From: Gemmatimonadota bacterium
Lineage (GTDB): Bacteria > Gemmatimonadota > Gemmatimonadetes > Palauibacterales > Palauibacteraceae
Assembly: GCA_029861425.1 (NCBI GenBank)
Contig: JAOTZH010000012.1
Coordinates: 1 to 39,287, forward strand
Direction: 5' to 3'
DNA length: 39,287 nucleotides
In this document: positions 14,937-33,640 of the stretch, one piece after another
Position numbering within the stretch: position 1 is the stretch's first letter
Layout: the number at the start of each line of letters is the position of its first letter
Position numbers and translations under genes: made by a program
Notes under the pieces: generated by a model
What the model was told of the DNA's origin: nothing
The model's database searches: none
The model's input: only the letters and a program-made list of their open reading frames with translations

Positions 14937-17003
14937 ATGCTGAATCTGGCCGTTGGAGACACGATTTCGCGTTACGAACTGCTCGAGAAGATCGGGCAGG
15001 GCGGAATGGGCGTGGTGTACCGCGCGCTCGACACGCGACTGGATCGCGAGGTCGCCCTCAAGTTCGTCATGTCTTCCATGGCGGAGGGCGAAGATGCTCG
15101 CGAACGGTTCCTCCGCGAGGCCCGGGCCGCCGCGGCCCTCGACCACCCGAACGTTGGAGCCGTCTACGAGATCGACGAGGCCGACTCGTTCATGTTCATC
15201 GCGATGGCCTTCATCGAGGGCGAGAGTCTCGACCACATCATCAAGACCCGCAGCCTCGATGTCCTCGAAGCGGTCGACCTCGCCATACAGATCGGCGAGG
15301 GTCTCGCCGCCGCGCACGAACAGGGGATCATCCACCGCGACGTGAAGACGGCCAACGTCATCGTGAAACCCAAGGGCCGGGCAGTCGTGCTCGATTTCGG
15401 GGTGGCACGCACGACCGACTACACCCCGATGACCGCCACCGGCGGCGTGATCGGCACGACGGCGTACATGTGTCCCGAACAGTTCACCGGCGCCGAGTAC
15501 GATCATCGCTGCGACATCTGGGGACTCGGGGTGGTCCTCTACGAGATGCTGACGGGGGCGTTGCCGTTCGAGGGTCGGACACACCTGGCGGTCATGCAGG
15601 CCATTCTCAATACGGCGCCGCATCCGGTCGGGGCGCTCCGGGCGATCGAGGACATGGGGGTCGAGCACATTCTGAATCGGGCGCTCGCGAAACAGCCGAA
15701 GCGACGGTATCAGACGATGTCGGCGTTCGTCGCCGATCTGCGCAGTGTCGAGGAGGCCGCGCGGGCCCTCGAGGTCGCCGAAGAGTCGACGGATCCACTC
15801 AGGCGCCACTCGCCGCGAGTTGTCGTCCCGCCCCCGGTGGAAGTGCTCGACCGTCCGATCCGGATCCTGGTCGTGGACGATGAGCCCGATCTGGAGCTGC
15901 TCGTACGCCAGCACTTCCGCAAACAGACGCGGGCGGGCGATCTCGCGTTCTCCTTCGCCGGTGGAGGGACGCAGGCGCTGGAGACGCTCGAGGCGGAGCC
16001 GCACATCGGGATCGTCCTGACCGACATCCGTATGCCCGGAATGGATGGCCTGACGCTTCTCGGAAAGATGTCGGAGCTCGACCGGGCCCTGAAAGCCGTG
16101 GTCGTGTCGGCGTACGGCGACCTCGGGAATATCCGGACGGCGATGAACCGGGGCGCGTTCGATTTCGTCACCAAGCCGATCGACTTCAGCGACCTCGAGA
16201 CGACGATTGCGAAGGCGTGGAGTGAGCTCATCCTCCTGCGCGAAGGCCGTGAGGCGCAGCGGCGCCTCTCCGCTGTCCAGCAGGAGCTGGACGTCGCCCG
16301 TCGCATCCAGGACGCCATGCTCCCGAAGTCGTTGCCGGACCGAAGCGACCTCGACGTCTACGCGTTCAAGGTGCCCGCAGCGGACGTGGGCGGAGACTTC
16401 CACGATCTCTTCGTCCTGCCGGACGGTCGGGTCGCGTTGCTCGTCGGCGAGGTCGTGGGGACGGGGGTCGCCGCGACGATGCTCGCGGTGATGGCCCGAA
16501 CGCTGATCAAGGCGATCGCGCCCCGGTCGGATTCACCGGTCGAGTGTCTCGCCGAAGTCGGGCGCCTCCTCGAAGCCGAGAGGCTGAACGCGCTGTCCGT
16601 GACCGCCGTCCTCGCTTACGTGGACGGCGAAACCGGCGCCGTCGAATTGGCGAACGCCGGTCATGTCGCTCCGTACCTCCTGAGCGCCGACGAGGCGCCG
16701 GAGCCCCTGGGAAAGAGCATGTCTGCCGCGCTGGGTCAGGCCGGGGGCGACTTCTTCGCCGGCACTGCCACGCTCGAGCCAGGTGGCGGACTCTTCCTTT
16801 ACACGGATGGCGTCGCGGACACGGTGGACTCGTATCACTCGGTGTTCTCCCGCGAACGACTCGAGGCCGTACTGGCCGAATGCAGGGGAGAATCCGCGCC
16901 CGAGCTGGTCCGATCCGTCATTCGCGAGCTGGACGAGTTCGCCGACGGAGCCCCGCAGCATGCCGACGTGAGCGTCGTGGCCCTCAGCTACAAGGGCGCC
17001 TAG
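14937..17003 (+). CDS. Ser/Thr kinase - receiver - SpoIIE/RsbU-type phosphatase fusion
   Basis: A 688-residue cytoplasmic protein joining three signalling modules. Residues 12-270 are a complete Ser/Thr kinase: GQGGMGVVY loop, K42, HRDVK with catalytic D135, and DFG 153-155. Residues 308-425 form a receiver: acidic pair D314/D315, phosphoacceptor D363 in LTDIRMPGMDG, S391 and K413. Residues 440-688 form a PP2C-like SpoIIE/RsbU phosphatase, starting with the usual helix (ELDVARRIQDAMLPKSLP), then DVGGDF (D487) and LYTDGV (D624). In the third metal motif, normally GDVSGKG, Glu505 replaces Asp (VGEVVGTG), and the final DD pair reads AD (A676-D677). No membrane segment. A partner-switch (anti-sigma/anti-anti-sigma) output is the usual role of such phosphatases; no such partner gene is nearby. 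The start has no well-spaced ribosome-binding site. Confidence 0.92.
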   Translation: MLNLAVGDTISRYELLEKIGQGGMGVVYRALDTRLDREVALKFVMSSMAEGEDARERFLREARAAAALDHPNVGAVYEIDEADSFMFIAMAFIEGESLDHIIKTRSLDVLEAVDLAIQIGEGLAAAHEQGIIHRDVKTANVIVKPKGRAVVLDFGVARTTDYTPMTATGGVIGTTAYMCPEQFTGAEYDHRCDIWGLGVVLYEMLTGALPFEGRTHLAVMQAILNTAPHPVGALRAIEDMGVEHILNRALAKQPKRRYQTMSAFVADLRSVEEAARALEVAEESTDPLRRHSPRVVVPPPVEVLDRPIRILVVDDEPDLELLVRQHFRKQTRAGDLAFSFAGGGTQALETLEAEPHIGIVLTDIRMPGMDGLTLLGKMSELDRALKAVVVSAYGDLGNIRTAMNRGAFDFVTKPIDFSDLETTIAKAWSELILLREGREAQRRLSAVQQELDVARRIQDAMLPKSLPDRSDLDVYAFKVPAADVGGDFHDLFVLPDGRVALLVGEVVGTGVAATMLAVMARTLIKAIAPRSDSPVECLAEVGRLLEAERLNALSVTAVLAYVDGETGAVELANAGHVAPYLLSADEAPEPLGKSMSAALGQAGGDFFAGTATLEPGGGLFLYTDGVADTVDSYHSVFSRERLEAVLAECRGESAPELVRSVIRELDEFADGAPQHADVSVVALSYKGA

Positions 17004-17015
17004 CGGCAGGCGGCG

Positions 17016-19280
17016 TCAGCGGGCCTCAGCCCGGCCCTGCTCCCGCCGGGCCTTCTTCAATCGCTCCTCGTAGGATCCCCAACCGAACGTCAGACCCACG
17101 ATCGAATCGATCTTCGGCAACCCCGACATCGCGTTCGCGGCGAGCATGCCCGAGATCGTGGCCCCCTCGACGCACCCGCCATTGAACGGGCTCCACGTCC
17201 AGTCGCCGGCCAGATACAGGTTGTCGAAGCCGGACGCCCCGGGCTGCAACCGGTGCTCGCTGGTTCCCGGCAGGGACATCACGTAGCGCTCCGTCGGCTG
17301 GACGTTCGCGCGGAAGTACTGCGACTCCAGACGCGCAGCGCCCCTGTTGCTGCCGGGCCGGTTGTCGACGAGCCGATCCCAATCGAACTGCCCCCGGTTC
17401 GATCCACGGGGCCACAACCGGTACATCTCGTCCTCGAGGAAGGTCGTGAAACGCCGCCGGATGGTCTGATTCGCGGACTTCTGGTCGAGCTCCTCACAGG
17501 ACTGCTTTGGTCCGTGGGGCGTGGTCGGCAGTGGCTTCTCCTGCATGGGGCCGCAGAAATACGCGATGCTGAGCGGAGACTCGTCGCCCACGCCCGGCCA
17601 TGCTTCCCGCACCAGCAGCTCGGTCATGTCGGCCCACGTGTCGAAGTTCGATGAGTCGTACGTCGCGAGGAGCGGGTGCCCGGGGTGGGTCCACCCCATC
17701 TCGTATGTCGTGTCCGTCAACCAGAGCTGCCCGGCCTGCGTCGCGATCGTGGCCACGTTGTCGACCATCTTCTTCCAGTCGTCGCTGTGGTCGATGAGAT
17801 CCCCGCAGATGTAGGGGTGCGCCCCCAGGGAGATCCCGAGTACGACGTCGTCGAAGTGCGTTCCGCGAACCAGGGTCCGGGTGCCGAGGTGCGGGCTGCA
17901 CCAATCCTCGAAGTCGATGCCTTCCGCGGCGTACTTCTCGCCGTCCACGAGCTGGGACCAATCGGGTTCACTCGGCCAGCAGTCGAGCCCGCGCACCTCG
18001 ACCAGGGGCTGATACGCGATCTGGCTATCCACGATCTTCGCCTGCGTGGCGATCTCGATCCCGTCGATCGATTTCCCCGCGGTCTCGAGCTTCGTGACCT
18101 TCTGGAAGTACTCGAACTTGACTCCGCGCTGCTTCAATATCTGATAGGCGGGGGTAAAGATCGTGTCGCCCATCCCCGCCTGCATCCGCCAGATGACCGC
18201 GCCCTTCCAGGTGAGCCCGAGGCGGAAAAGCGTGTACACGGCCGCGCCGGCGGAAAAGCGCATCTTGTCGAGGTCGCCGTTCACGTAGGCGAAGTCCGCA
18301 TCGTACAGAAACCTCGCCAGGGGCGAGCGCAGAGTCAGCGACTCGCCTTCGGCTCCCGGGTGAGCGTCGTCGACGATGTGCTTTCCGAGCCACTCGCGGA
18401 AATCGAGGTGCTCGATCGAGTCGAACCCCTTCCGGAACAGGTCGTCATCGATGATCCCGCGGAGGAACCCGACGCCGAAGTTCATGAAGATCCAGGCTTG
18501 CCGGGCGCCGAGGTCGTCCATGTGCCGCTTTGCCCGCCTCCAGTGGAAACGGACGAGCCCTTGCACGAACCAGATGCCGAGCCGTTGAAGAAGGTGGAAG
18601 ATCGCGTAGACGCCACCCCGTACGAACTTCGGGAGCAGCCGGCCCACCGTGCTGGTCAGCAGGTGGCCGACTTCGTACACCGTGTAGAACGCGAGCGAGA
18701 CGATCTCGGTCAGCGTCAACGCCGTGTAGTAGAAGAGCCGGAAGAAAAGTCCCGCGAAGAAGCCGGCGCCGGATGTCCGTTTCTCGTGTCGCTTACGGTG
18801 CGAGGTCTTCAGACGGTCCAGTACGAAGCCGAACGCCTCGCCGATGTAGCTCCAGAAAGGCAGGAAGAGCTTCGCCTCCGGGTCACCGGGCAGCTGATCG
18901 TTGGTCGGAGGCTCGATCACCCACGAGACCCACTCGCCGTTGTACTTCTCTTCCAGGGCGACGACCTCGCAGGGCTTGAACGCGTCGAGCCACGTAGCGA
19001 GCGGTGCGTCGGGCGCCCGCCCCAGCTCCTCGTACGCCCCGCGCATCAGTCGGAACGCGTTGTCGTACAGACCGGCCCACACATGTAGGCCGTGTTCCTC
19101 GATCCTGCACCCTTGCTCAAGGTTTCGGCCGCTCGCGCCCTTCCCGCCGATCCGCCAGCCGAGCTGGTAGATCGTGATGTCGTACTTGTCTCGAAGCTCG
19201 GGGCGGGTGAGCTCGAGGGCGGTCGTGATGCCCCCGACCCCGCCCCCCAGGATCGCGATCTTGCGTTTGTTTTCGCTCAT
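17016..19280 (-). CDS. Phytoene-desaturase-like FAD-dependent oxidoreductase
   Basis: A 754-residue flavoprotein. The N-terminus has the dinucleotide motif KIAILGGGVGGITTALEL (GGGVGG 12-17), then QLGWRIGGKGASGRN, where the second-strand acidic residue that binds the ADP ribose is replaced by Gln. The C-terminus has LYLAGDWTWSPFNGGCVEGA, the second FAD motif of the phytoene desaturase/amine-oxidase family. An insert at about residues 170-260 is rich in hydrophobic and aromatic helices (FFAGLFFRLFYYTALTL and following), suggesting binding to a membrane or to a greasy substrate. The protein is longer than most CrtI-type desaturases (about 500). It is last in a three-gene minus operon, starting 4 bases after the receptor stop. 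A dehydrogenase or desaturase of an isoprenoid-like compound is inferred. Confidence 0.82.
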   Translation of the reverse strand: MSENKRKIAILGGGVGGITTALELTRPELRDKYDITIYQLGWRIGGKGASGRNLEQGCRIEEHGLHVWAGLYDNAFRLMRGAYEELGRAPDAPLATWLDAFKPCEVVALEEKYNGEWVSWVIEPPTNDQLPGDPEAKLFLPFWSYIGEAFGFVLDRLKTSHRKRHEKRTSGAGFFAGLFFRLFYYTALTLTEIVSLAFYTVYEVGHLLTSTVGRLLPKFVRGGVYAIFHLLQRLGIWFVQGLVRFHWRRAKRHMDDLGARQAWIFMNFGVGFLRGIIDDDLFRKGFDSIEHLDFREWLGKHIVDDAHPGAEGESLTLRSPLARFLYDADFAYVNGDLDKMRFSAGAAVYTLFRLGLTWKGAVIWRMQAGMGDTIFTPAYQILKQRGVKFEYFQKVTKLETAGKSIDGIEIATQAKIVDSQIAYQPLVEVRGLDCWPSEPDWSQLVDGEKYAAEGIDFEDWCSPHLGTRTLVRGTHFDDVVLGISLGAHPYICGDLIDHSDDWKKMVDNVATIATQAGQLWLTDTTYEMGWTHPGHPLLATYDSSNFDTWADMTELLVREAWPGVGDESPLSIAYFCGPMQEKPLPTTPHGPKQSCEELDQKSANQTIRRRFTTFLEDEMYRLWPRGSNRGQFDWDRLVDNRPGSNRGAARLESQYFRANVQPTERYVMSLPGTSEHRLQPGASGFDNLYLAGDWTWSPFNGGCVEGATISGMLAANAMSGLPKIDSIVGLTFGWGSYEERLKKARREQGRAEAR

Positions 19281-19284
19281 CGGC

Positions 19285-21966
19285 TCAGAACGAGTAGGCG
19301 AGCTGGAGCATCGCGAGCCGCCCGATCGCGGGGGTCCCGATGTACTCGAAGTGCTCGTTGTCGAAGAGGTTCTGGACGGACAACCTGAGCGTCGCCCGTC
19401 GGTGGAACGGCAGCGGATACGCCGCGTTCACGTCGACCACCGTATAGGAATCCACGGTCCCGGCGAAAACGCCGGAGAGGACCGGGAAGCTGTCCACGTA
19501 CCGAATCCGCACCCCCGTATCGAGGCCGATCGCCGGATCCCTGAAGGTGACGATCCCATTCACCTTGTTCATCGGCGCGTTCAGCGCGATGTCCTGGATC
19601 TGGTTCGGTCCCCTCGGGAACAGATCCTTGCTGATGTGGGAGTAGTTGACCCCGATCCCCCACCGTGGGGTCGGCGAGTACTGGAGATTCAGGTCCGTCC
19701 CCCACAGCGAGACGTCGCCCTTGAAGTTCCGGAACGTGAGGATCAGATCTGCAGGGCTCAACGCCCCCGCCTCGGACGGCGTGATCGTGCCCAGCGGGAT
19801 CGCGGCGATCCCCGCGGCCAGCCCCGCGGCCTCGTCGGCGGGCATGAACCCCGTCAGGTAGGTCGTTAGAGACGCGGCGTCGTAGAACGCGTTCGGCGTC
19901 TGCACATCGAGGCTGCTGACGAAGTTCTCGACCTGCGAGTAGTACACGTCCGCGGAGAAGAGCCAGCGATCGGACAGAAGGCCGCGGTACCCGACCTCGA
20001 ACGTGTTCGTGATCCCGGGCTCGGGAGGCCCGATGTCGTTCAGATCGCCCGGATCGATCGCGTCGAACGCTCCAGTGCCGGTGTTGAGGATCGCGAGGAC
20101 CGTGGCGACCTCGGCTGTGCCGGGCGCCGGGATCCCGGAGATGTCGACACCCTGGCCCCCCAGGATCGCTACGACCGACGACCACAGTTGCGTGACGTCG
20201 GCGTCGATGAACTCCTCCCGTCCACCGGCGTTGAACGGCGACTGCATGAAGAAGCCCCCGACCCCCGTCTCCGAATCGCGCATGAACGAGTAGCCCGTGT
20301 CCGGCGACCTGAGTCCGCGGAGGCCGTAGGGCAGCGGACCGAGCTGGCCGAGGTTCAGATCCAGAAAGAGCTGGGGGCTGGATGGCGTCGTGAACGCGCG
20401 GTTGTAGGTCGCGCGGAAGGTGTGGTCCGGGTCGGGGTTGAACACGAGAGCCGCCCGTGGCGAGAAGATCGCCGCGTCGAGACGGCTATGGGCGTCCACC
20501 CGGGCCGTGGCCACGAGGCGTAGCGTCTCCGTCAGCTCGGTCTCGGACTGAACGTATGCTCCGAACAGGTCGATGCTGTCGTCGTCCTCGAAGCGCCCGT
20601 GGATGGTGAAGTTCGTGTTGGGCCGCGTTAGGTAGGCGTCCGCGCCGTAGATGAAGTCCTGGCGTCCGTCGGCCAACGATGTCCCGTGCTGAAGTTGCGC
20701 CACGAACAGTCTGGACTTGTCGACGATCCGGTCGCCGGTCCGCCGTAGATACGTGCGCGGGTTCTCCGTGTTGCCAGCGTTGAGGAACACCTGTCCGAAG
20801 AAGCGCCCCTTGGACGCGCGTAGCTGGCCAAAGCTGTTTCGCCAATCCGCATTCTGGCTGGCGCCGACGTCCGTGATCATCAGGCCCTTCATCTGCGCGA
20901 CGCCGCCGGTGAGGTTTACGTCCCAGCCCGCGCCCGGGCGGAAATCCAGCCTCGCCTCGGCCTTGTAGTTCTCGACGTCGAAGTCGCGGAGATTCTCGAT
21001 CGGGTCGTCGTCGCTCACGCGGCCCTCGAGCGTGTACTGACCGAGAAGAACCGAGTCGGGCTCGGCCGGGTCGTCATACTCCCAGTCGGCGCCGGTATAA
21101 AGTGAACCGGACACCTTGAGAGCGAACTTCTGGCTGAAGACGCTCGCGTGACGGAACGAGGCCGAGAAGAGATCTCGCTCGCCGATCCCGATCGTGGCCG
21201 TCGTGCCCGGCGAGTCGAATGGCGACTTCGTGATGATGTGCATCACGCCGTTCGCGGCGTTCGCGCCATAGAGCGCCGACCCCGGGCCCCGCACCACCTC
21301 GATCCGCTCGATGTCATCGTTGATCGGCGTCAACAGCTCCGCGATGTTGTGTCGAAGCCCCGGGATGTGGGTGTTGCGGTTGTCGACGAGTACCAGTGTC
21401 TTGTCGAACGTGCTGAGCGCGTTGTTGAATCCGCGGATCGCGATCCGCGTCTGATTGAGCCCGGAGCTGGCAACGTCCACCGCAGGCACATGCCGCAGGT
21501 GCTCCGGCACCGTGAGGACCTGCCGTCCCGCGATCTCCTGCTGGTCGACGAGCGACACCGAAGCCGGCGCTTCGACGGCCTTCTCGATCTGACGCGAGAC
21601 CGAGACGACGAGCGTGTCGCCGAAGACCGCCGCGATCTCGAGCGCGATGTCGATCGTGCGGTCGTCCCCGGGCCCGACCCGGACGGGGGTGTCTTCAAAC
21701 GGCGAATACCCGATGAGTGACGCGGTCAGCGTGTAGGCGCCGGGCGCGACGTCCCGGAAGACGTAGACGCCCTGCTGGTTGGTAGTCGCGCGTCTGAACC
21801 CGGTGCCTTCATCCGCCAGCGCCATGTTCACGCCCGTGAGCGGCCGCAGATCCGAATCCGTAACCGTTCCACGGATGGTCGCCGTCTGCGCGGTCGCGGC
21901 CGCACAGGCCCACACCGTCATCACAACCGCACCGAGCATTGCTCGGGCCGACATCGCCTGCCTCAT
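19285..21966 (-). CDS. TonB-dependent outer-membrane receptor with N-terminal carboxypeptidase-like domain
   Basis: An 893-residue receptor. The signal peptide (MLGAVVMTVWACAAATAQ) is followed by a carboxypeptidase-regulatory-like domain (about 28-110: TIRGTVTDSDLRPLTGVNMA, GVYVFRDVAPGAYTL), a plug (about 125-255: ASVSLVDQQEIAG, RGFNN, IERIEVVRGPGSALYGANA) and a 22-strand-type barrel ending in Phe893 (LQLAYSF), the usual outer-membrane insertion signal. ATG 21966 has CGGAG 6 bases upstream. It is the middle gene of the minus operon: 24 bases after the lycopene-cyclase-like gene and 4 bases before the FAD oxidoreductase. That position implies the receptor imports the substrate of, or otherwise serves, those two enzymes. 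The ligand is unknown. Confidence 0.92.
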   Translation of the reverse strand: MRQAMSARAMLGAVVMTVWACAAATAQTATIRGTVTDSDLRPLTGVNMALADEGTGFRRATTNQQGVYVFRDVAPGAYTLTASLIGYSPFEDTPVRVGPGDDRTIDIALEIAAVFGDTLVVSVSRQIEKAVEAPASVSLVDQQEIAGRQVLTVPEHLRHVPAVDVASSGLNQTRIAIRGFNNALSTFDKTLVLVDNRNTHIPGLRHNIAELLTPINDDIERIEVVRGPGSALYGANAANGVMHIITKSPFDSPGTTATIGIGERDLFSASFRHASVFSQKFALKVSGSLYTGADWEYDDPAEPDSVLLGQYTLEGRVSDDDPIENLRDFDVENYKAEARLDFRPGAGWDVNLTGGVAQMKGLMITDVGASQNADWRNSFGQLRASKGRFFGQVFLNAGNTENPRTYLRRTGDRIVDKSRLFVAQLQHGTSLADGRQDFIYGADAYLTRPNTNFTIHGRFEDDDSIDLFGAYVQSETELTETLRLVATARVDAHSRLDAAIFSPRAALVFNPDPDHTFRATYNRAFTTPSSPQLFLDLNLGQLGPLPYGLRGLRSPDTGYSFMRDSETGVGGFFMQSPFNAGGREEFIDADVTQLWSSVVAILGGQGVDISGIPAPGTAEVATVLAILNTGTGAFDAIDPGDLNDIGPPEPGITNTFEVGYRGLLSDRWLFSADVYYSQVENFVSSLDVQTPNAFYDAASLTTYLTGFMPADEAAGLAAGIAAIPLGTITPSEAGALSPADLILTFRNFKGDVSLWGTDLNLQYSPTPRWGIGVNYSHISKDLFPRGPNQIQDIALNAPMNKVNGIVTFRDPAIGLDTGVRIRYVDSFPVLSGVFAGTVDSYTVVDVNAAYPLPFHRRATLRLSVQNLFDNEHFEYIGTPAIGRLAMLQLAYSF

Positions 21967-21990
21967 CTCCAGCTCCGGTCTCCCCGAGTC

Positions 21991-22986
21991 TTACTCGTCT
22001 TCCGGCCCCGGCCCGAACAGCGCCTGCCAGAACGGACGGTCCAGGTGGAAGTACATGCGAAACGTCTCGTACGCCCCGACGGCGCCGAACGCGGCGGCCA
22101 GCCACAACAGCACCGCCTCGACCGGAAGCTCGGCCCATGCCGTGATCCGGATCCCGATCATCTGTTCGCCCTGGTAGTTCCACCAGTTGTACGGAACGCC
22201 CAGCGTCGCTTCCCACACCAGGCTTACGAGTAGTAGAACGGCATACGCGAAGACGAAGGCTCGCCAGTTGATGAACTTCCCGACCGATCCGATGAGAACG
22301 GAGGCCGGGACGAACGCGAGGAGGCACAGAAACGTGAAGTACGCGGGGAACCCCGCGTTGTGCGGCGCCGGCAACGATTTCTTGAAGAAGTAGGCGACGG
22401 CGATCAGGGCGACGGCGATCACGATCGGCCACGGCGAGAAGTTGATGATCTTGCGGTGGTGCAGCGCGAGGATGCCGCGCTGTTCGTGGTCGTAGACCTT
22501 GAGCCAGTCCGTGTCGGCCCAGATGTATGTCGTGATCATGAAGAAGGCGCCGAAGATGTAGAAGCCGAACTCCTCGATCGGCAGGTAGTCCCCTACCCAG
22601 GCCATTTGACCCCAGCTCCAGGCGGGAAGGCGCCACCCGAGCGTCGCGTCCGGGTTCGGGAATACGAAAAACGAGTATCCGAACCCGAAGTCGAGAATCG
22701 AGCCGAGGATGAAGACCGCGAGCGCAGCACAGAGCATCGCCTTGCGGTCCACGTGTTGTCTGGGGTGCAGGAAGAACCAGATGCCGATGACCGCGACCGG
22801 CATCGCGAACAGCAGCAGGCTGATCGTGTACCCGAACGGCGTCGGATTCTGTGACGGCGGGGTGGTTGACGGCGCGTCGACGTTCATCAGCGTCAGGATC
22901 GCCGGCACGAGCAGAGCGACGGTCATCGCGATGACCGTCGTGAGGGTCTTCGGATGTTCGGGGAGCTTCGTGGGGTCCGACGTCAT
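21991..22986 (-). CDS. Polytopic membrane protein with lycopene-cyclase-domain-like repeats
   Basis: A 331-residue protein with about seven to nine membrane helices. Two halves share a pattern. The first has TLGWRLPAWSWGQ, then DYLPIEEFGFYIFGAFF (P136-I-E-E139). The second has EATLGVPYNWWNYQGEQ, then AWAELPVEAVLLWLAAAF (P288-V-E-A291). A proline-x-glutamate-glutamate helix after a Trp/Tyr-rich loop is the mark of the CrtYc/CrtYd lycopene cyclase domain, fused in tandem in archaeal and fungal enzymes. The second motif keeps Pro and the first Glu only. Start ATG 22986 is the first gene of the minus operon. Whether it cyclises an isoprenoid is inference. No crtB, crtI of usual type or crtE is in the window, so ordinary carotenoid synthesis is not shown. 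Confidence 0.7.
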   Translation of the reverse strand: MTSDPTKLPEHPKTLTTVIAMTVALLVPAILTLMNVDAPSTTPPSQNPTPFGYTISLLLFAMPVAVIGIWFFLHPRQHVDRKAMLCAALAVFILGSILDFGFGYSFFVFPNPDATLGWRLPAWSWGQMAWVGDYLPIEEFGFYIFGAFFMITTYIWADTDWLKVYDHEQRGILALHHRKIINFSPWPIVIAVALIAVAYFFKKSLPAPHNAGFPAYFTFLCLLAFVPASVLIGSVGKFINWRAFVFAYAVLLLVSLVWEATLGVPYNWWNYQGEQMIGIRITAWAELPVEAVLLWLAAAFGAVGAYETFRMYFHLDRPFWQALFGPGPEDE

Positions 22987-23242
22987 GGGCTGCGCGACCT
23001 TTCTCAGGGATGCTCCGACGCGATGGCATCCTCCAGGTGCGACTGCTGAAGTCGCGGAAAAACATGACCTTCGCCACCCGCGACCGCCAGCGGCCCGCCC
23101 CGCAGTAGCCCGCCGTCTCGGGCAGAGCCGATCTTCGGGCCGATCACGTTAGCCCGGCGTGGACACGTGCCCCGCGGCGAGGCTACCGTAATCCCGCGCT
23201 CGATCCTGTCTCCCGTCCGCCGTAATCCGGAGTGTTGAACCG
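22987..23242. promoter_or_regulatory. Divergent promoter region between the two isoprenoid-type transcription units
   Basis: A 256-base gap between two divergent starts, so promoters for both units should be here. CCGTAATCC occurs twice, at 23186-23194 and 23220-23228, 34 bases apart (about three helical turns), just upstream of the decarboxylase-like gene. GCCGATC is also repeated at 23127 and 23139. No convincing -35/-10 pair is seen. CCGGAG at 23227-23232 may serve as ribosome-binding site for the plus-strand gene. Confidence 0.45.
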
Positions 23243-24352
23243 ATGACCGACCCAAACGGATCTATCTACCCGGAGCTCATCAGCACGGGACTCCTTCTTC
23301 CGATTCCGCAGGGCCCGTACGTCGCGAACGGCGTCACGATGTCGAGCTTCCTCGTGCACGCGGATCACGACAAGCTCCAGGGCCACCTGGACCATTACAT
23401 CAACGATCGCGACCCGGACGGCGAGTGGGAGTACAAGGCGCTGATCCCGAACGTCCTCATCACCTACGCGCATCTGATGGGGGACGTATTCCAGGAGGAC
23501 GGAAAGAAGGTCGGGCTCATGGACGAGAACGACCTGTGCTTCTGGGTCCTGTGTGTCGCGATGCGAAAGACGGCCCTCGGAATCCGCATCCCCAGCCATC
23601 TGACCTGGTTCGTCCCTTTCATCTTCGTCGACAACCCGTTTGCGGTCGTCGCGGGCCGAGAGATCTACGGGTTCCCCAAGACCGTGGGGAGGTTCCTCGA
23701 TGCGGACGGCGTCGACATCCGGAGACACCAGGACCACCAGATCGACGTCAGGAATCCGACGTACCGTGTGGACGTCCTGGCGTTCGACAAGTCGCAGCCC
23801 GACCAGCTAGGGACGGAGCAGACGCTCCTGTCCTGTGAGCCTCTCGACGAGCCGTCCGGCCACCCGGGCGACACCTGGACCGACCCGAAGCAGGCGGTCG
23901 AGGGGTTCGTTCCGCACCTCACGGGTCACGAGCAGGGCATGGTACATCCGAGCTTCCTCGACGAGGCCCTGGACGCGCTCCTGCACTTGCTCAAGCCAGA
24001 CATGAACCTGTTGTTCCTGAAGCAGCACCGTGCCGCGGCCTCGATCAAGCGCGCCGGCTACCAGGCGATCGTGGAAGAGCCGATCTCGCTGACGGGGTTC
24101 CACGGCATGGGCCTCTACACACACAAGTATCGCCTGACCCTCAACCCGCTGTGGCACTATCCGATCGCCGAGATGCTGGGTATCCAGAACGAGAACGGCG
24201 TGTTGACGCCGTCGGTCGGCTCGTGGTCGATCGTCGACTTCTCCAATGCCGACGCCAACGTGCGCTGGCAGTGGCCTCCGCTACCGGACGGCGAGACGCC
24301 CCCCGAGCACCGCTCGGGGTGCATGCCTCTCTCGGGTCTGTTCAAGAAGTAA
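23243..24352 (+). CDS. Acetoacetate-decarboxylase-superfamily protein
   Basis: A 369-residue soluble protein. The central segment WFVPFIFVDNPFAVVAGREI, followed directly by YGFPKTVG, is the hallmark of the acetoacetate decarboxylase fold: Glu140 in GRE and Lys146, which corresponds to the Schiff-base lysine of the clostridial enzyme. That enzyme has a second lysine next to it, which lowers the pKa of the first; here Thr147 takes its place. The protein is also longer than the roughly 245-residue decarboxylase, with extra N- and C-terminal parts. Superfamily members lacking the second lysine can do other Schiff-base chemistry, so decarboxylation should not be assumed. The gene is divergent from the receptor operon and followed after 21 bases by the hybrid kinase gene. 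Confidence 0.82.
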   Translation: MTDPNGSIYPELISTGLLLPIPQGPYVANGVTMSSFLVHADHDKLQGHLDHYINDRDPDGEWEYKALIPNVLITYAHLMGDVFQEDGKKVGLMDENDLCFWVLCVAMRKTALGIRIPSHLTWFVPFIFVDNPFAVVAGREIYGFPKTVGRFLDADGVDIRRHQDHQIDVRNPTYRVDVLAFDKSQPDQLGTEQTLLSCEPLDEPSGHPGDTWTDPKQAVEGFVPHLTGHEQGMVHPSFLDEALDALLHLLKPDMNLLFLKQHRAAASIKRAGYQAIVEEPISLTGFHGMGLYTHKYRLTLNPLWHYPIAEMLGIQNENGVLTPSVGSWSIVDFSNADANVRWQWPPLPDGETPPEHRSGCMPLSGLFKK

Positions 24353-24373: not shown

Positions 24374-27300
24374 GTGAAGGAGATCGCCGGGTACGATCTC
24401 GGGGAGAAGCTCTACGAGAGCCAGAAGTCCATCGTCTACCGGGCGCGCCGCTCGGCCGATGGGCTCGGCGTCATCATCAAGTTTCTCAACCGGACGCACC
24501 CCACCTCAGATGAGCTCTCGCGGCTGCGGCTCGAATTCGACGTCATGGCGGGCCTGGAAGTCGAGGGCATCGTCGACGTGTTGGAGATCGTCCAGCAGGG
24601 ACCGACCGTGGGTTACGCGATGGAGGACTCGGGCGCGGAGTCCCTCGCTTCGCACTTGCAGTGGGCCCGCTTCGACCTGCCGGCGTTCCTCGATCTGGCG
24701 ATCCGACTCGTCGAGATCGTGGCCCAGGTGCACGCGAATCGTGTGGTTCACAAGGACCTGAATCCGAGCAACATCCTCTTCAATCCGAGGACGCGGGTCC
24801 TCCAGCTCATCGACTTCGGGATCTGCTCCACCCTCCCGTCCGAACGGGCGACGGTCAGCAACCCGGAGGTGCTCGAGGGCACACTCGCCTACATGGCCCC
24901 CGAGCAGACCGGCCGCATGAACCGGCCGATCGATTATCGGTCCGACTTCTACTCGCTCGGGGCGACGTTCCACCAGCTTCTGACCGGTGCGCCTCCGTTC
25001 TCCGCCGATGACCCGATGGAGCTCGTGCACGCCCACATCGCGCGCGAGCCGGAGCCTGTCCACGCCGTCCGCGAAGACATACCGGAGGTGGTCTCGGAGA
25101 TCGTACTGAAGCTCCTGAGCAAGACGGCCGAAGCGCGGTATCAGACGGCCGAAGGGCTGCTCGCCGACCTCCGGGAGGTCGTTCGTCGCCTCGAAGGTGG
25201 AGCCACGGTCGACGCATTCGAGATCGGGCGCCGTGACGTCTCGAGCGAGCTCAAGATCCCCGACAAGCTCTACGGGCGGGAGGACGAGACCGCGACGCTC
25301 CTCGAGGCCTTCCGTCGTGTTTCCGAAGGCGCGACCGAGGTCATGACCTTCACCGGTCCGGGCGGGATCGGGAAGACGGCCCTGGTCCAGGAAGTCTACA
25401 AAGGCATCGCCGCGCGACGCGGCTACTTCGTCTCGGGCAAGTTCGACCAGTTCCAGAACCTCCCGTACAGTGCGCTGAGGAGCGCTCTTCGCGATCTGAT
25501 TCGGCAGATTCTCACGGAGAGCCCCGAGCGGATCGAGGACTGGAAGACCCGGTTGTTGGCGGCCGTCGGTTCGAGTGGGCAGGTGATCATCGAGGTGATC
25601 CCGGAGGCCGAGTGGATCCTGGGGCCACAGCCTCCGGCCCCGGCGCTCGGGGCTGTGGAGGGGCAGACGCGTCTGAACGCGGTCTTCCAGGGCTTCATCG
25701 GCGCCCTCACCGCGGACGGCACCCCGATCGTCCTGTTCCTCGACGATCTGCAATGGGCCGACCAGGCGTTCCTCTCGCTGATCGGCGCCTTGCTGCCCAC
25801 GTCGCACAACCTCCTCGTACTCGGGGCCTATCGGGACGAAGAGGTCGAGGCCGGGCACCCCCTTCGGCTCACGCTCGAGCAGATCGAGTCGGCCGGCATC
25901 CCGGTGCATCAAATACCGGTGGGCCCACTCACCGTCGAGCACGCCGGTGAGTTGATCGCGGACAGCCTCGCCTGCTCCGAGGATGCGGCCATAGATCTGG
26001 CCGTACTGCTATCGACCAAGACGGCCGGCAATCCGTACTTCCTCCGACAGCTCCTGTTCTCGCTCGAAGAGGAGAAGCTGCTGAGCTTCGACGCGAGCGA
26101 GGGCGGGTGGACGTGGGACCCGGAGGCCCTCGCTTCGATCGACATCACGGAAAACGTCGTCGATCTCATGGCCGGGAAGATCCGGGGTCTGCCCGACGAT
26201 TCGCAGCGTGCGCTCCAGTGGGCTGCGTGCCTGGGGAACCGGTTCGACCTGACGACGCTGGCGCTCGTACGGGAGAAGAGCGAGCCGGAGGTCGCGGCCG
26301 AGCTGTGGCCCGCGGTCATTCAAGGTCTCCTGACCCCCGAGGGGGACGCCTACAAGCTGGTCGCAGAGTTCCGGGCGGACGGCGACACGTCGCCCGATAG
26401 CCCGAGCGCGGGCCTGGACGTCTCCTACCGATTCGCCCACGACCGCGTACAGCAGGCCGCCTACTCGCTCATTCCCCCGGACAACCGCGGCGACGTGCAC
26501 CTTCGGCTCGGCAGGGTGCTGCAGGAGCGGGCCGAGCGAGAGCTCACGCCGTCAGGCGGCTGGAGGTTCGATGAGGCGATGTCCACCGAATCGCTCCTCG
26601 ACGCGGTGAACCACCTGAACCTGGGCCGCGCACTGATCCACTCGCGCCCGGAACGCGAATCGCTCGCGCGGCTGAACCTCTGGTCGGGACAACGCGCGAA
26701 GGCGGCCGCGGCCTACGCGCAGGCGCTCGAGTATCTCCTCGTCGGCGCGGAGATGCTCGGGGAGGCGCTGTGGACCACGCAGCACGATCTCGGTCTCACT
26801 CTCCGGTCGGAGGCCGCCGAGGCCGCGTACCTGAGCACGGACTTCGAACGAAGCGAGGAGTTGGTCCGGGAAGTCCTCGCGCACGTAAAGGACGTGATCG
26901 AGGAGGCGTCCGTCTACGAGATCCGCATCCAGTCGTACATGGCTCAGCAGCGCCTGGTCGAGTCGGTGGACGCCGCCCTCGAGGTTCTGAAGAAGCTCGG
27001 GGTCTCGCTGCCCCGGAGTCCGGGAGACCTGCGGATCCTGGCCGGATTCCTGAGGACGAAGGCCGCGCTCGGCCGTCGCTCGGTCGACGATCTTCGCGCA
27101 TTGCCGGACATGACGGACCCCAGGACACTCGCCGCGATGCGGATCCTGATGGTCGCGACGGCTCCGATCTACTTCACCACGCCGAAGCTCTTTCCGCTCG
27201 TCGCCTTCGAGATGGTCAAGCTGTCCGTGCGGCACGGAAACGCGGCGTATTCGGCTTACGGCTACGGCATCTACGGGATTCTGCTGTGTGCGGCGTTCGG

Positions 27301-29758
27301 GGACATTCCGAACGGGTATCGGTTCGGGCGGCTCGGTCTCGACCTGGTCGATCACTTCGACGCACGTGAGCTCATCGCCAAGGTCACGCTCGTCTTCAAC
27401 TCGAGTGTCGCGCAGTGGCAGGATCCGCTGCGAGACACCCTGCCGCCGCTCCTGAAGGCGTACCAGAGCGGCGTCGACGCCGGTGACGCGGAGTACGCGA
27501 CCCTCTGTGTCGGTACGCGGGGTTACAACGGGTTCGCCTGCGGCCGGGAGCTGTCGGACGTCGCGTCTGACCTGGATGGCGCCATCGACGTGGCCGGCCG
27601 GTTCAAGCAGACCAAGCACAGACTGCAGATGTCCCTGTTCCGGCAGGGCGTGGAGAACCTCACGAACCCGGTCCCGGACCCCGCACGTCTGAAGGGCGAG
27701 TTCTTCGACGAGGACGTCGAGCTCGCGAAGCTCACCGATCTGGCGGACGTCTCGATGATGTGCCAGGCGTCGATCATCAAGAGCGAGCTCGCGTGCGTGT
27801 ACGGGGACTACGAGACGGGCGCGGCGTTCTCTGTCGAAGCGGGGCGGATCATCGAGTCACTGGTCGGCACCGGCCTCCACCCCATGCACCACTTCTACGA
27901 CGCACTGTCGACGCTGGCCGCGGCTCCGGATGGGTTGAAGCGACGAACGGCCCGGCATCTGCTGAAGCGGGCGGACAGATCGCTCAAGAAGCTGCGGAAG
28001 TGGGCCGAGCACGCACCGTCCAACTTCGAGCACAAGGTTCTGCTGCTCGAAGCAGAGCGTGCGCGGGTGACCGGCGATCCGACCGGCGCGATCGAGCTCT
28101 ACGATCGCGCCATCGCGGCGGCGCGCTCGAACGAGTATCCGCACGAGGAAGGGATCGCCAGCGAGCTCGCGGGGCGTTTCTACGAATCGGTCGGCAAGCC
28201 GAGGTTCGCGCTGGACTACCTGCTCGACGCGCGCCATGCCTACGTCCGGTGGGGAGCAAGCGCCAAGGTCGCAGAGCTCGACGCCGCGCACCCCGAGGTC
28301 GCGAAACGGGTCGCGGACGAGGGCTTCGACACCGACTGGCAGGGGACGACTCCGACCGGGCGCACCGGTCAGATCCTGGATGTGACGACGGTGACCAAGG
28401 CGTCCCGCGCGATCTCGGGCGAAATCGTGCTGGAAAAACTCGTCGACACTCTGATGCGAATCGTGGTCGAGAACGCTGGCGCGCAGCGGGGCTTCCTGAT
28501 CCTGGACGTGGACGGCGAGCTTCTGATCGACGGAGCCATGGACGTCGGGGAGGACACGGTCCGGGTGATGCAGTCCGAGCCGGTCGAGGAAAGCGCCGAG
28601 CTTTCACAGTCGATCGTCAACTACGTGGCGGGGACGGGCGAGCTCGTAGTGCTGAACGACGCGACGAGTGACGAGCTCTTCGCGAGCGATGACTACGTGC
28701 TGGCGCGCGAGCCCAAGTCGATCTTCTGTCTTCCGCTCCTCAACAGGGGAGAGCTGACGGGGCTCGTCTATCTCGAGAACAACCTGACCACCGGGGCGTT
28801 CACGGAGGCCCGACTGGAGGTCCTGCGTCTGCTCTCGTCCGAGATGGCGATCTCCATCGACAACGCGCGGCTGTACGCGAACCTCGAGCACAAGGTCGAG
28901 CAGCGGACCGAGGAGCTGCGACACGCGAACGAGGAGCTGAGCGCCGCGCTCGATGGCCTGAAGGCCGCCCAGACCCAGCTCATTCACACCGAGAAGATGG
29001 CGTCTCTCGGCCAGCTGACCGCGGGGATCGCGCACGAGATCAAGAACCCGCTCAACTTCGTCAACAACTTCGCGAAGTCGATACAGTCGTTGATGGAGGA
29101 GTTGGAGGAGGAGCTCGCCGAGCGGAAGGAAGCGACCGTGGCCGAGGTGCTTCCCGATCTCGACGAGGTGCTGTCCGACCTCAAGGTCGCGGCAGACCGC
29201 GTCGCGACCCACGGGTCGCGGGCCGACACCATCATTCGCAGCATGATGCAGCATGCCCACGAGTCCGGCAGCGAGCGGCGGTCGACGGATGTGAACGCGC
29301 TCGTGAAGGACTACGTGGAGCTCACCTACCACGGGATGGCCGCTCAGCGCGCCGACTTCCACGTGAACGTCGAGACGGACTTCGACGAGACTGCCGACGA
29401 GCTGGATCTGGTGCCCCAGGACATCGGGCGGGTTCTGGCGAACCTGCTGTCGAACGCCTACTACGCGGTCGATGAGCAGAAGGAGCGGACCGGGCCCGAT
29501 TACACACCGACCGTGTGGGTCACGACGCGGCGGACCGCCGACGGGGTGGAGATCAGGATCGCGGACAACGGACCGGGGGTGCCCGAAGAGATTCGCGAGA
29601 TGATCTTCGAGCCGTTCTACACGACGAAGCCGACCGGAGATGGGACGGGGCTCGGGTTATCCCTCAGCTACGACATCGTCGTGACACAGCACGGCGGTGC
29701 GTTCCGTCTGGACGATGCGTCGGAAGAGGGGGCGGCGTTCGTGGTGGTGCTGCCTTAG
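24374..29758 (+). CDS. Giant hybrid: Ser/Thr kinase - AAA ATPase - TPR-like - GAF - histidine kinase
   Basis: A 1794-residue cytoplasmic signalling protein. Residues 1-265 are a Ser/Thr kinase with HKDLNPSN (catalytic D128) and IDFG (D147), but no glycine-rich loop: the segment reads GEKLYESQKSIVYRA. About 296-560 is an AAA-type ATPase with Walker A GPGGIGKT (328-335) and Walker B VLFLDDLQWAD (to 463). About 560-1330 is a helical MalT/TPR-like sensor region. A GAF domain lies at about 1335-1500, a coiled coil at about 1503-1545, the phosphoacceptor His1554 in GIAHEIKNPLNF, and the ATP-binding domain at about 1680-1794 with NLLSNAYYAV, DNGPGVP and GTGLGLSLS. This order is known from multifunctional kinases of several phyla. 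It has no receiver; a partner may be elsewhere. Start GTG 24374 lacks a clear ribosome-binding site. It probably shares a transcript with the upstream decarboxylase-like gene. Confidence 0.93.
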   Translation: MKEIAGYDLGEKLYESQKSIVYRARRSADGLGVIIKFLNRTHPTSDELSRLRLEFDVMAGLEVEGIVDVLEIVQQGPTVGYAMEDSGAESLASHLQWARFDLPAFLDLAIRLVEIVAQVHANRVVHKDLNPSNILFNPRTRVLQLIDFGICSTLPSERATVSNPEVLEGTLAYMAPEQTGRMNRPIDYRSDFYSLGATFHQLLTGAPPFSADDPMELVHAHIAREPEPVHAVREDIPEVVSEIVLKLLSKTAEARYQTAEGLLADLREVVRRLEGGATVDAFEIGRRDVSSELKIPDKLYGREDETATLLEAFRRVSEGATEVMTFTGPGGIGKTALVQEVYKGIAARRGYFVSGKFDQFQNLPYSALRSALRDLIRQILTESPERIEDWKTRLLAAVGSSGQVIIEVIPEAEWILGPQPPAPALGAVEGQTRLNAVFQGFIGALTADGTPIVLFLDDLQWADQAFLSLIGALLPTSHNLLVLGAYRDEEVEAGHPLRLTLEQIESAGIPVHQIPVGPLTVEHAGELIADSLACSEDAAIDLAVLLSTKTAGNPYFLRQLLFSLEEEKLLSFDASEGGWTWDPEALASIDITENVVDLMAGKIRGLPDDSQRALQWAACLGNRFDLTTLALVREKSEPEVAAELWPAVIQGLLTPEGDAYKLVAEFRADGDTSPDSPSAGLDVSYRFAHDRVQQAAYSLIPPDNRGDVHLRLGRVLQERAERELTPSGGWRFDEAMSTESLLDAVNHLNLGRALIHSRPERESLARLNLWSGQRAKAAAAYAQALEYLLVGAEMLGEALWTTQHDLGLTLRSEAAEAAYLSTDFERSEELVREVLAHVKDVIEEASVYEIRIQSYMAQQRLVESVDAALEVLKKLGVSLPRSPGDLRILAGFLRTKAALGRRSVDDLRALPDMTDPRTLAAMRILMVATAPIYFTTPKLFPLVAFEMVKLSVRHGNAAYSAYGYGIYGILLCAAFGDIPNGYRFGRLGLDLVDHFDARELIAKVTLVFNSSVAQWQDPLRDTLPPLLKAYQSGVDAGDAEYATLCVGTRGYNGFACGRELSDVASDLDGAIDVAGRFKQTKHRLQMSLFRQGVENLTNPVPDPARLKGEFFDEDVELAKLTDLADVSMMCQASIIKSELACVYGDYETGAAFSVEAGRIIESLVGTGLHPMHHFYDALSTLAAAPDGLKRRTARHLLKRADRSLKKLRKWAEHAPSNFEHKVLLLEAERARVTGDPTGAIELYDRAIAAARSNEYPHEEGIASELAGRFYESVGKPRFALDYLLDARHAYVRWGASAKVAELDAAHPEVAKRVADEGFDTDWQGTTPTGRTGQILDVTTVTKASRAISGEIVLEKLVDTLMRIVVENAGAQRGFLILDVDGELLIDGAMDVGEDTVRVMQSEPVEESAELSQSIVNYVAGTGELVVLNDATSDELFASDDYVLAREPKSIFCLPLLNRGELTGLVYLENNLTTGAFTEARLEVLRLLSSEMAISIDNARLYANLEHKVEQRTEELRHANEELSAALDGLKAAQTQLIHTEKMASLGQLTAGIAHEIKNPLNFVNNFAKSIQSLMEELEEELAERKEATVAEVLPDLDEVLSDLKVAADRVATHGSRADTIIRSMMQHAHESGSERRSTDVNALVKDYVELTYHGMAAQRADFHVNVETDFDETADELDLVPQDIGRVLANLLSNAYYAVDEQKERTGPDYTPTVWVTTRRTADGVEIRIADNGPGVPEEIREMIFEPFYTTKPTGDGTGLGLSLSYDIVVTQHGGAFRLDDASEEGAAFVVVLP

Positions 29759-32442: not shown

Positions 32443-32810
32443 AATACGTCCGGTTGGTGGGTGCGGGTTTGCTCGGGTATGCGGTCTTTGCGCTCGGTCT
32501 ATCGGGAATCGTGATCGCCGTCTGGCACGAAGGGTGGATCCAGCCGGTCGGCGTCTGGATCGTCCTCATCGTGCTAGCCCAGCTAGTGCTCGGCTGGGTG
32601 ACCGGAGCGGCCACGGCGCTGGCCGGGGGGCCGTTCGGCGGGCTCGCCGTCTATGCCGTCGCCGTTCTGATCCTCGTCGTGACCCTGGCGAACATCTGGA
32701 TGGACGTCGCCGTCGAGCCGACGTGGTTCAAGCTATGCGTCATCGGGTTTGTCGCACCGACGGTGGTGCTGGTCGGGCGCCGGCGCGCGGCCCGCTCGAG
32801 TAAGCCATGA
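32439..32810 (+). CDS. Small four-helix membrane protein (second copy)
   Basis: A 123-residue hydrophobic protein beginning MKYVRLVGAGLLGYAVFAL, with about four membrane helices and a basic tail (RRRAARSSKP). It resembles the protein at 31091-31480 at the N-terminus (MKYV[KR]L, GYA) and around P-x-WF before the last helix, so I read the two as diverged paralogues flanking padR and the prefix-like gene. Start and stop both overlap neighbours by ATGA (32439-32442 and 32807-32810), which suggests translational coupling. Function unknown. Confidence 0.75.
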   Translation: MKYVRLVGAGLLGYAVFALGLSGIVIAVWHEGWIQPVGVWIVLIVLAQLVLGWVTGAATALAGGPFGGLAVYAVAVLILVVTLANIWMDVAVEPTWFKLCVIGFVAPTVVLVGRRRAARSSKP

Positions 32811-33640
32811 TCGCACTCGCGCTGACCCTCTTCTTAAATGCTCTCGCGCCCGTGGCGCTCTCGCCTTTCGACACGGTCGCCGTACCGGTGGTCTGGCTGA
32901 CCGAGGGGCACTCGATCGTGTGCGACATCGCCTGGCGCGAACTCACTCCCGAATCCAGGGCAGGTGTCGCCGCGCTGCTCGCCGCCGATTCCGACTTCGA
33001 AGAGTTCGGACCGTCGTGCGACTGGCCGGACATGGTCCGCGGGATCGCCGAGTACGATCGCTACGTCACCGCCCACTATGTCAATGTCGAGCCCGGCGCG
33101 GATGGCGTGAACGTGGCGCGCGACTGCGGACCTGGCCTCTGCGCGGTCGACGCGATCGGGGTATTCGCCGGCCGGCTGCGCGATCCCGACACGCCGCTCG
33201 ACGAGCGACTCGTTGCGCTCAAGTACCTCGGCCACATCGTCGGCGACATTCATCAGCCGCTACACGCCGGTTATCAGTCGGATCAGGGCGGGAACCAGGT
33301 CGACGTGTGCTTCCCCGACGGTCGGACCGGTAGCCTGCACTGGGTGTGGGACTCGTTTCTGGTCGACGCGCGGCTGGCCGCGGCGGAGCTGGGCTGGCGG
33401 GACTACGCCGGGGTGCTCCACGCAGACATCAACGAGGTCGAGCGACGCCTCTGGTCGTCGACCGACCCGCGGGACTGGGCGAACGAGTCGTTCGCGCTCG
33501 TCCAGGATGAGGTCTACGACGGTGTCGGTGACGGGTGCTTCGGCGAGGACTACGCCGGGCTCCACGCATTCACGATCGAGCGCCGCTTCAAGCAGGCCGG
33601 ACTGCGGCTGGGCGCCCTGCTGAACGACATCTTCGGGTAG
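32807..33640 (+). CDS. S1/P1-family nuclease
   Basis: A 277-residue zinc nuclease of the S1/P1 family, which cuts single-stranded DNA and RNA. All trinuclear zinc ligands are present at correct spacing: Trp30 (the mature N-terminus in P1), His35, Asp75 (SCDWPD), His90 (TAHYVNV), His143 and Asp147 and His153 (LGHIVGDIHQPLHAG), His178 and Asp182 (LHWVWDS). Residues 1-29 must be removed for Trp30 to bind zinc. They are hydrophobic (MIALALTLFLNALAPVAL) but have no Arg or Lys, which is odd for a signal peptide. The ATG overlaps the previous stop (ATGA), tying this nuclease to the PadR cassette. It probably acts outside the cytoplasm, scavenging or degrading nucleic acid. Confidence 0.9.
   Translation: MIALALTLFLNALAPVALSPFDTVAVPVVWLTEGHSIVCDIAWRELTPESRAGVAALLAADSDFEEFGPSCDWPDMVRGIAEYDRYVTAHYVNVEPGADGVNVARDCGPGLCAVDAIGVFAGRLRDPDTPLDERLVALKYLGHIVGDIHQPLHAGYQSDQGGNQVDVCFPDGRTGSLHWVWDSFLVDARLAAAELGWRDYAGVLHADINEVERRLWSSTDPRDWANESFALVQDEVYDGVGDGCFGEDYAGLHAFTIERRFKQAGLRLGALLNDIFG

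Follow-up and report, generated by a model that had tools for sequence, protein, structure and literature searches.

Gene content of the locus

We analysed a 39,287-nucleotide stretch from a Gemmatimonadota bacterium (the window; GenBank assembly GCA_029861425.1, contig JAOTZH010000012.1, positions 1 to 39,287), in which an initial annotation had proposed a four-gene system at 17016–24352 for the uptake and conversion of an isoprenoid-like compound. Three of the genes lie on the minus strand and encode an FAD-dependent oxidoreductase of 754 aa (P0001, 17016–19280, assigned from the list of open reading frames (ORFs), Pfam and TIGR profiles and a predicted model; hereafter the flavoprotein), a TonB-dependent outer-membrane receptor of 893 aa (P0002, 19285–21966, ORF list and Pfam) and a CarR/lycopene-cyclase-like membrane protein of 331 aa (P0003, 21991–22986, ORF list and profile matches below cut-off). 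The fourth gene, on the plus strand, encodes an acetoacetate-decarboxylase (ADC)-superfamily enzyme of 369 aa (P0004, 23243–24352, near-cut-off match to PF06314). ORF coordinates confirmed the described arrangement, a minus-strand operon with gaps of 24 bases (P0002–P0003) and 4 bases (P0001–P0002) and a divergent fourth gene. The 256-base divergent intergenic stretch (22987–23242) contained no match to a sigma-70-like promoter.

The four genes were real, and the initial annotation had overlooked a kinase gene on either side of them. Downstream of P0004, beginning 21 bases past its end on the same strand, is a gene for a 1794-aa protein with protein kinase, AAA_16, GAF and histidine-kinase domains by Pfam (24374–29758, plus strand). 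On the other side, a plus-strand gene for a protein kinase/response regulator/SpoIIE phosphatase protein, also by Pfam (14937–17003), converges with the P0001 gene, their ends being 12 bases apart.

The family labels originally given to the four proteins held to different degrees. P0002 is certainly a TonB-dependent receptor by its domains, with the plug (PF07715), barrel (PF00593) and carboxypeptidase-regulatory domains all above the Pfam cut-off, and P0001 exceeded the cut-offs of the Amino_oxidase, NAD_binding_8 and DAO families. P0004 scored 29.4 bits against PF06314, 0.4 short of the 29.8 cut-off, and P0003 was clearly under its cut-offs, for which the suffix "like" was apt.

A flavoprotein–ADC unit with adjacent sensors

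The predicted model of P0001 was confident (mean pLDDT 88, pTM 0.91), with a helical insert at about residues 142–255. Structure prediction had been suggested as a check on the flavoprotein, and its best fold match was a phytoene desaturase: chains of the rice enzyme 5mog took ranks 1 to 4 of the fold search (top match E 5.8e-15, TM 0.72 by target length), and gamma-carotenoid desaturase and oleate hydratase were also among the ten best. By sequence profile, matches in the PDB were weak and mixed, with phytoene dehydrogenase first (0.001), followed by protoporphyrinogen oxidase and many LSD1 entries. Partial matches of P0001 to HpnE (52.6 bits, cut-off 283) and zeta-carotene desaturase (42 bits, cut-off 622) were far below equivalog level; among family members, 60/60 matched HpnE and 55/60 zeta-carotene desaturase at E ≤ 1e-3. 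The predicted fold of P0001 is phytoene-desaturase-like, and the model suggests an isoprenoid substrate class. P0001 shares this predicted fold and an FAD motif with phytoene desaturase, zeta-carotene desaturase and HpnE, whereas its family differs from them in its length of about 750 aa, its long helical insert and its ties to ADC-type enzymes and sensors. Three flavoprotein genes stand in a row behind a DUF2071-type gene in an acidobacterium (L048:9998-16334) and a planctomycete (L097:9995-16039).

All 29 aligned members of the P0004 family matched PF06314 at E ≤ 0.01, and all 29 rows kept K146, which belongs to a GREIxGxxK stretch. This residue aligned with the lysine of GFPKK in two alignments to solved ADCs, both with weak E-values (0.075 and 0.085); the solved ADCs listed for the P0004 profile ranged from 0.075 to 0.51. 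The aligned lysine is the Schiff-base lysine of ADC, and P0004 shares with that superfamily the stretch that carries it.

The genomic setting of the flavoprotein was counted over 86 loci (labelled L below), comprising the window, five other loci of the phylum, and the top 80 among the relatives, at least 585, that a flavoprotein alignment matched in named genomes. These are the loci most similar to the flavoprotein rather than a random sample, and several stop at contig ends. Genes were tagged by profile matches, because picking the longest ORF was partly wrong in GC-rich DNA (L020, L118). An ADC-superfamily enzyme was fused to the flavoprotein, or encoded in the same locus, in 75 of the 86: 42 had the fusion, 15 an ADC gene no more than 300 bases away, six (including the window) one at another place in the locus, and 12 a DUF2071-type protein within 3 kb, leaving 11 with no such partner. 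DUF2071-type members also match the ADC profile, below its cut-off.

The fusions were built in different ways. The ADC domain precedes the flavoprotein in L032 and others and follows it in L019 and L033; a DUF2071-type domain follows it in L041 (checked again), L051, L071, L096 and L101; and in L024 a CarR-like protein is fused with ADC. This variety is strong evidence that the flavoprotein, ADC-type and CarR-like proteins work together, and a functional link between the parts of the module is supported by fusions and synteny across phyla. Among the fetched loci the flavoprotein–ADC unit was present in nine named phyla, and cultured carriers include Shewanella, Pseudoalteromonas, Janthinobacterium and Azospirillum. 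A further example is plasmid p3 of Azospirillum brasilense: its record matches the flavoprotein at two places, and the plasmid also encodes an ADC protein, a FadL-type protein and a kinase of the same architecture.

Named neighbours in the receptor and flavoprotein trees point to Gemmatimonadota, and within this phylum the distribution is patchy. Counting the window genome, the flavoprotein was found in 6/200 genomes and P0003 in 6/395, with neither in the other genomes listed for the window's genus (0/9 and 0/15, respectively), so that the cluster counts as accessory in this phylum. A genome-contig scan with P0001 alone as query gave no confirmed relative, and tblastn of plasmids gave no match for P0004 and one matching record, from Granulicella, for P0003. 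In that record no flavoprotein or ADC was annotated within 12 kb of the match, and a TonB receptor lies about 9.5 kb off.

After the ADC-type enzyme, the commonest partner of the unit is a large sensor of variable architecture. In 56/86 loci a protein of at least 350 aa belonging to signalling component c1, a single-linkage cluster, was encoded no more than 1.5 kb from the unit; some of these proteins may be shadow frames. Signalling proteins had a density of 3.29 per 10 kb over the first kilobase and of 0.14–0.89 farther out. The nature of the component was checked on 42 chosen proteins, a few of them more than 1.5 kb away, which contained AAA_16 (24), 7TMR-DISM (14), nucleotide cyclase (14) and protein kinase (13) domains. 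The window, L023 and L024 all have a large kinase together with a receiver-type protein (below cut-off in L024), and receiver/histidine-kinase proteins adjoin the kinase in L023 and L024; the 14937–17003 protein is a possible cognate regulator. Farther along the window are genes for an S1/P1 nuclease (32807–33640) and a xanthine-dehydrogenase-type molybdenum enzyme subunit (35439–37913).

The CarR-like protein and the receptor

Seven of nine P0003 family members matched PF18916 at E ≤ 0.1. Comparison of the two halves of P0003 with each other gave a probability of 78% (positive control, 95%). Half 1 matched the halves of genuine-type cyclases at 68 and 83%, half 2 not clearly so (22 and 12%), and the whole profile reached 15% against one genuine-type cyclase, with the PIEEF stretch alone aligned. 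PxEE, presumably the functional motif of both CarR repeats, was present in half 1 of all nine members (PIEEF in P0003); in half 2, PxEE occurred in 2/9 and PxEA in 7/9 (PVEA in P0003). A fold search with P0003 against the PDB gave no match at E ≤ 0.001. P0003 is probably a tandem repeat and, judged by these profiles, is a diverged, cyclase-like remote relative of CarR-type cyclases, which we do not call a lycopene cyclase. It shares with the CarR-type (CrtYc/Yd) enzymes the probable repeat and the PxEEF motif, and differs in its sub-cut-off scores, a second half that mostly reads PxEA and its occurrence in a genome where phytoene synthase has no match. Kinship of the membrane protein and flavoprotein with isoprenoid enzymes, on which the initial annotation had staked its proposal, was thus supported by the flavoprotein fold and the remote CarR relationship, the flavoprotein staying below the equivalog cut-offs and the membrane protein below both lycopene-cyclase cut-offs.

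Next to the flavoprotein, L023 (Anaerolineae) encodes a P0003 relative and L024 (a proteobacterium) a P0003 relative that is fused with ADC. The flavoproteins of the window, L023 and L024 fall together on one side of a tree branch with support of 100/97; the combination with a CarR-like protein was therefore probably made once, then kept or passed across phyla. All four parts were found together in the window alone, and three of the four in L023, L024 and the receptor-bearing loci, so that the co-occurrence of the four families, proposed as a check, was seen only in part.

Four other genomes of the phylum carry P0003 relatives and lack a flavoprotein match; in these a TonB receptor of one lineage lies within 6 kb. 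PF04240-type proteins occur in L118–L120 (of two tested, one was above the cut-off and the other unmatched; the rest were assigned by homology), and a CrtC-like protein in L119 (just above the cut-off) and L118 (by homology). A rubber-oxygenase/MpaB-like (PF09995, Lcp-like) protein is encoded near the CarR-like gene at L121:7990-9261, with a relative near the flavoprotein at L037:13781-15859. A second copy of P0003, with 67% identity, occurs in the window genome (L117:2879-3940; G000:C113:2924-3904); 2 kb from it is a distant TonB receptor, and the 15 kb fetched around it carried neither a flavoprotein nor an ADC tag. CrtC/lipocalin-type proteins were also seen near the flavoprotein unit in Catenovulum, a gammaproteobacterium (L046:8022-9005), and in Anaerolineae (L023:5487-6632).

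By profile, 14/86 loci had a receptor within 8 kb of the flavoprotein and 7/86 had one no more than 200 bases away; the seven come from Alteromonadales, an acidobacterium and the phylum of the window. In Azospirillum the FadL-type protein stands in place of such a receptor. The receptors of L118–L121, L019 and L022 belong to a second subfamily, found in 24/390 genomes. Of the receptors in its 18 other genomes, all fetched, 17 form a separate group (support 93/98) with no partner tags; in the eighteenth, G374, the receptor groups with those of L118–L120 and the genome has a P0003-like fragment on other contigs. We considered a dedicated receptor clade and rejected it: the six cluster receptors fall outside the group of 17, yet a single clade was not shown, and P0002 belongs elsewhere. 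The best receptor tree implied three changes of setting for cluster receptors, at least two of them by well-supported branches. Outer-membrane import proteins thus seem to have joined these clusters more than once, which is consistent with uptake of a hydrophobic compound but no proof of it.

Making or taking up the substrate

The initial annotation had noted that no prenyl or phytoene synthase was present, and a Pfam scan of 17 window ORFs likewise gave none. In the window genome, PF00494 (phytoene/squalene synthase) had no match, its control being positive in 7/14 genomes, and neither did PF04240, with its control working. Retinoid formation by a carotenoid oxygenase was set aside (PF03055 had no match in the window genome, control working); for rhodopsin chromophore supply, PF01036 likewise had no match, but its control was silent everywhere and the result is uninformative.

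The fold, the CarR-like partner, the links within the module and the lack of a phytoene/squalene synthase match together support modification of an isoprenoid-like molecule. We therefore read the locus as a sense-and-convert module whose target is a hydrophobic molecule, probably an isoprenoid or polyene, and give this reading an even chance. In the window genome the TonB receptor would import the molecule; its double bonds or end group would be the target of the CarR-like protein and a membrane-docked flavoprotein; through a Schiff base, the ADC-like enzyme would act on a keto group; and the kinase encoded after P0004 would sense the substrate or product.

Several results weigh against this reading. 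P0003 remained below both cut-offs (PF18916, 18.8 against 27 bits; TIGR03462, 23.6 against 39.4 bits). The second lysine, which neighbours the Schiff-base lysine in ADC, was absent in 29/29 rows of the P0004 family, so plain decarboxylation by P0004 cannot be assumed; this absence, and the fusion to or pairing with the flavoprotein, set the family apart from the rest of the ADC superfamily. Receptors like P0002 (E ≤ 1e-90) occurred in 237/395 genomes of the phylum, and the fetched loci of its closest relatives (20/20, several short from contig ends) had no tag for the flavoprotein, ADC, CarR-like, PF04240-type or CrtC-like proteins. PF00494 was found in 10/12 other flavoprotein-bearing genomes, and a self-made substrate is therefore possible in those relatives; the two exceptions include Shewanella sp. 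ANA-3. Many gamma- and betaproteobacterial loci (e.g. Shewanella, Oxalobacteraceae) had no isoprenoid gene or receptor within 8 kb by profiles. PF05834 (CrtY-type lycopene cyclase) matched two other contigs of the window genome, once above the cut-off (26.9 against 23.4 bits); since 10/14 controls, E. coli included, were also positive, we read this match as general FAD-binding and probably unspecific. Finally, the window genome is a metagenome-assembled genome, 90% complete, and absences from it are not final.

The alternative that survives best, though we find it doubtful, is a non-isoprenoid lipid substrate such as an unsaturated or keto fatty acid, with a carotenoid likeness at superfamily level only. 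The oleate hydratase among the ten best fold matches, the FadL-type protein in Azospirillum, the fusion in Shewanella sp. ANA-3 without a PF00494 match and the many loci at which no isoprenoid gene was seen all point this way, but the four best fold matches were all phytoene desaturase chains, and CarR-like, PF04240, CrtC-like, rubber-oxygenase-like and polyprenyl-synthetase genes recur in related clusters. We think it unlikely that the receptor is a chance neighbour of an internal pathway formed by the flavoprotein, CarR-like and ADC-like proteins without import. The commonness of its family, the location of its nearest members elsewhere and the repeated changes of setting on the tree would fit such a pathway; against it stand the 4-base gap inside one operon, the close receptor–flavoprotein pairs across three lineages and the CarR-like genes that neighbour one receptor lineage in four genomes.

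Polyprenyl-synthetase-profile matches lay near the flavoprotein in 6/86 loci (L021, the one checked with Pfam, L072, L075, L077, L081 and L092), whose flavoproteins form one group (support 100/100), and the ADC protein is long and tandem in 4/6. In L021 a second ADC domain has serine at the lysine position (L021:11943-16433). TonB receptors and FadL are known import proteins. A biosynthetic cluster, which would make an isoprenoid-derived product or signal from the cell's own prenyl precursors and whose receptor would take up something else or recapture the product, is the least probable of the three alternatives: these six loci, PF00494 in most relatives' genomes and the frequent sensors favour it, whereas the window lacks a prenyl synthase among its scanned ORFs, its genome lacks PF00494, and proteins of these two kinds are importers.

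The relatives with PF00494 and the six polyprenyl-synthetase loci mean that import is not a general property of the sense-and-convert module, and for the window genome it is likely yet weakly supported. The initial proposal that the cell imports and modifies the molecule rather than making it is thus plausible as to isoprenoid-type modification and overstated as to import, given a common receptor family, its closest members standing apart and PF00494 in most relatives. A bolder and improbable extension is that the module is a widespread bacterial counterpart of retinoid/apocarotenoid signalling, in which the flavoprotein and the Schiff-base ADC enzyme would make, from an isoprenoid in the environment, a ligand for the neighbouring STAND-type kinases, cyclases or 7TMR-DISM sensors, and outer-membrane receptors would have been repeatedly recruited to let the isoprenoid in.

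Two described systems share the idea of import. In the edc estrogen cluster, the TonB receptor EdcT appears to take up estrogens (PMC7793797); like the window, it has a TonB receptor among clustered enzyme genes, there serving a hydrophobic steroid, whereas the enzymes named in the available part of that paper are from other families and no sensor kinase is mentioned in it. TonB and FadL proteins have been proposed as oligoisoprene importers in rubber degradation (PMC5979037), and Lcp-like oxygenases occur in L121 and L037; the part of that paper available mentions no flavoprotein–ADC module, and "acetoacetate" is absent from its main text. The initial annotation knew of no described system with these parts, and we likewise found no description of the flavoprotein–ADC–sensor module in the open-access literature, subscription papers being mostly outside the search. 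The enzyme families are known; as far as searched, there is apparently no description of their frequent combination with one another and with sensors.

A variously fused two-enzyme unit, usually beside a large sensor, is a clear target in the search for a new hydrophobic substrate or signal, and its cultured carriers make the module testable. In the window the unit comes with a receptor and a cyclase-like protein, and the genome it belongs to shows no match to phytoene synthase.

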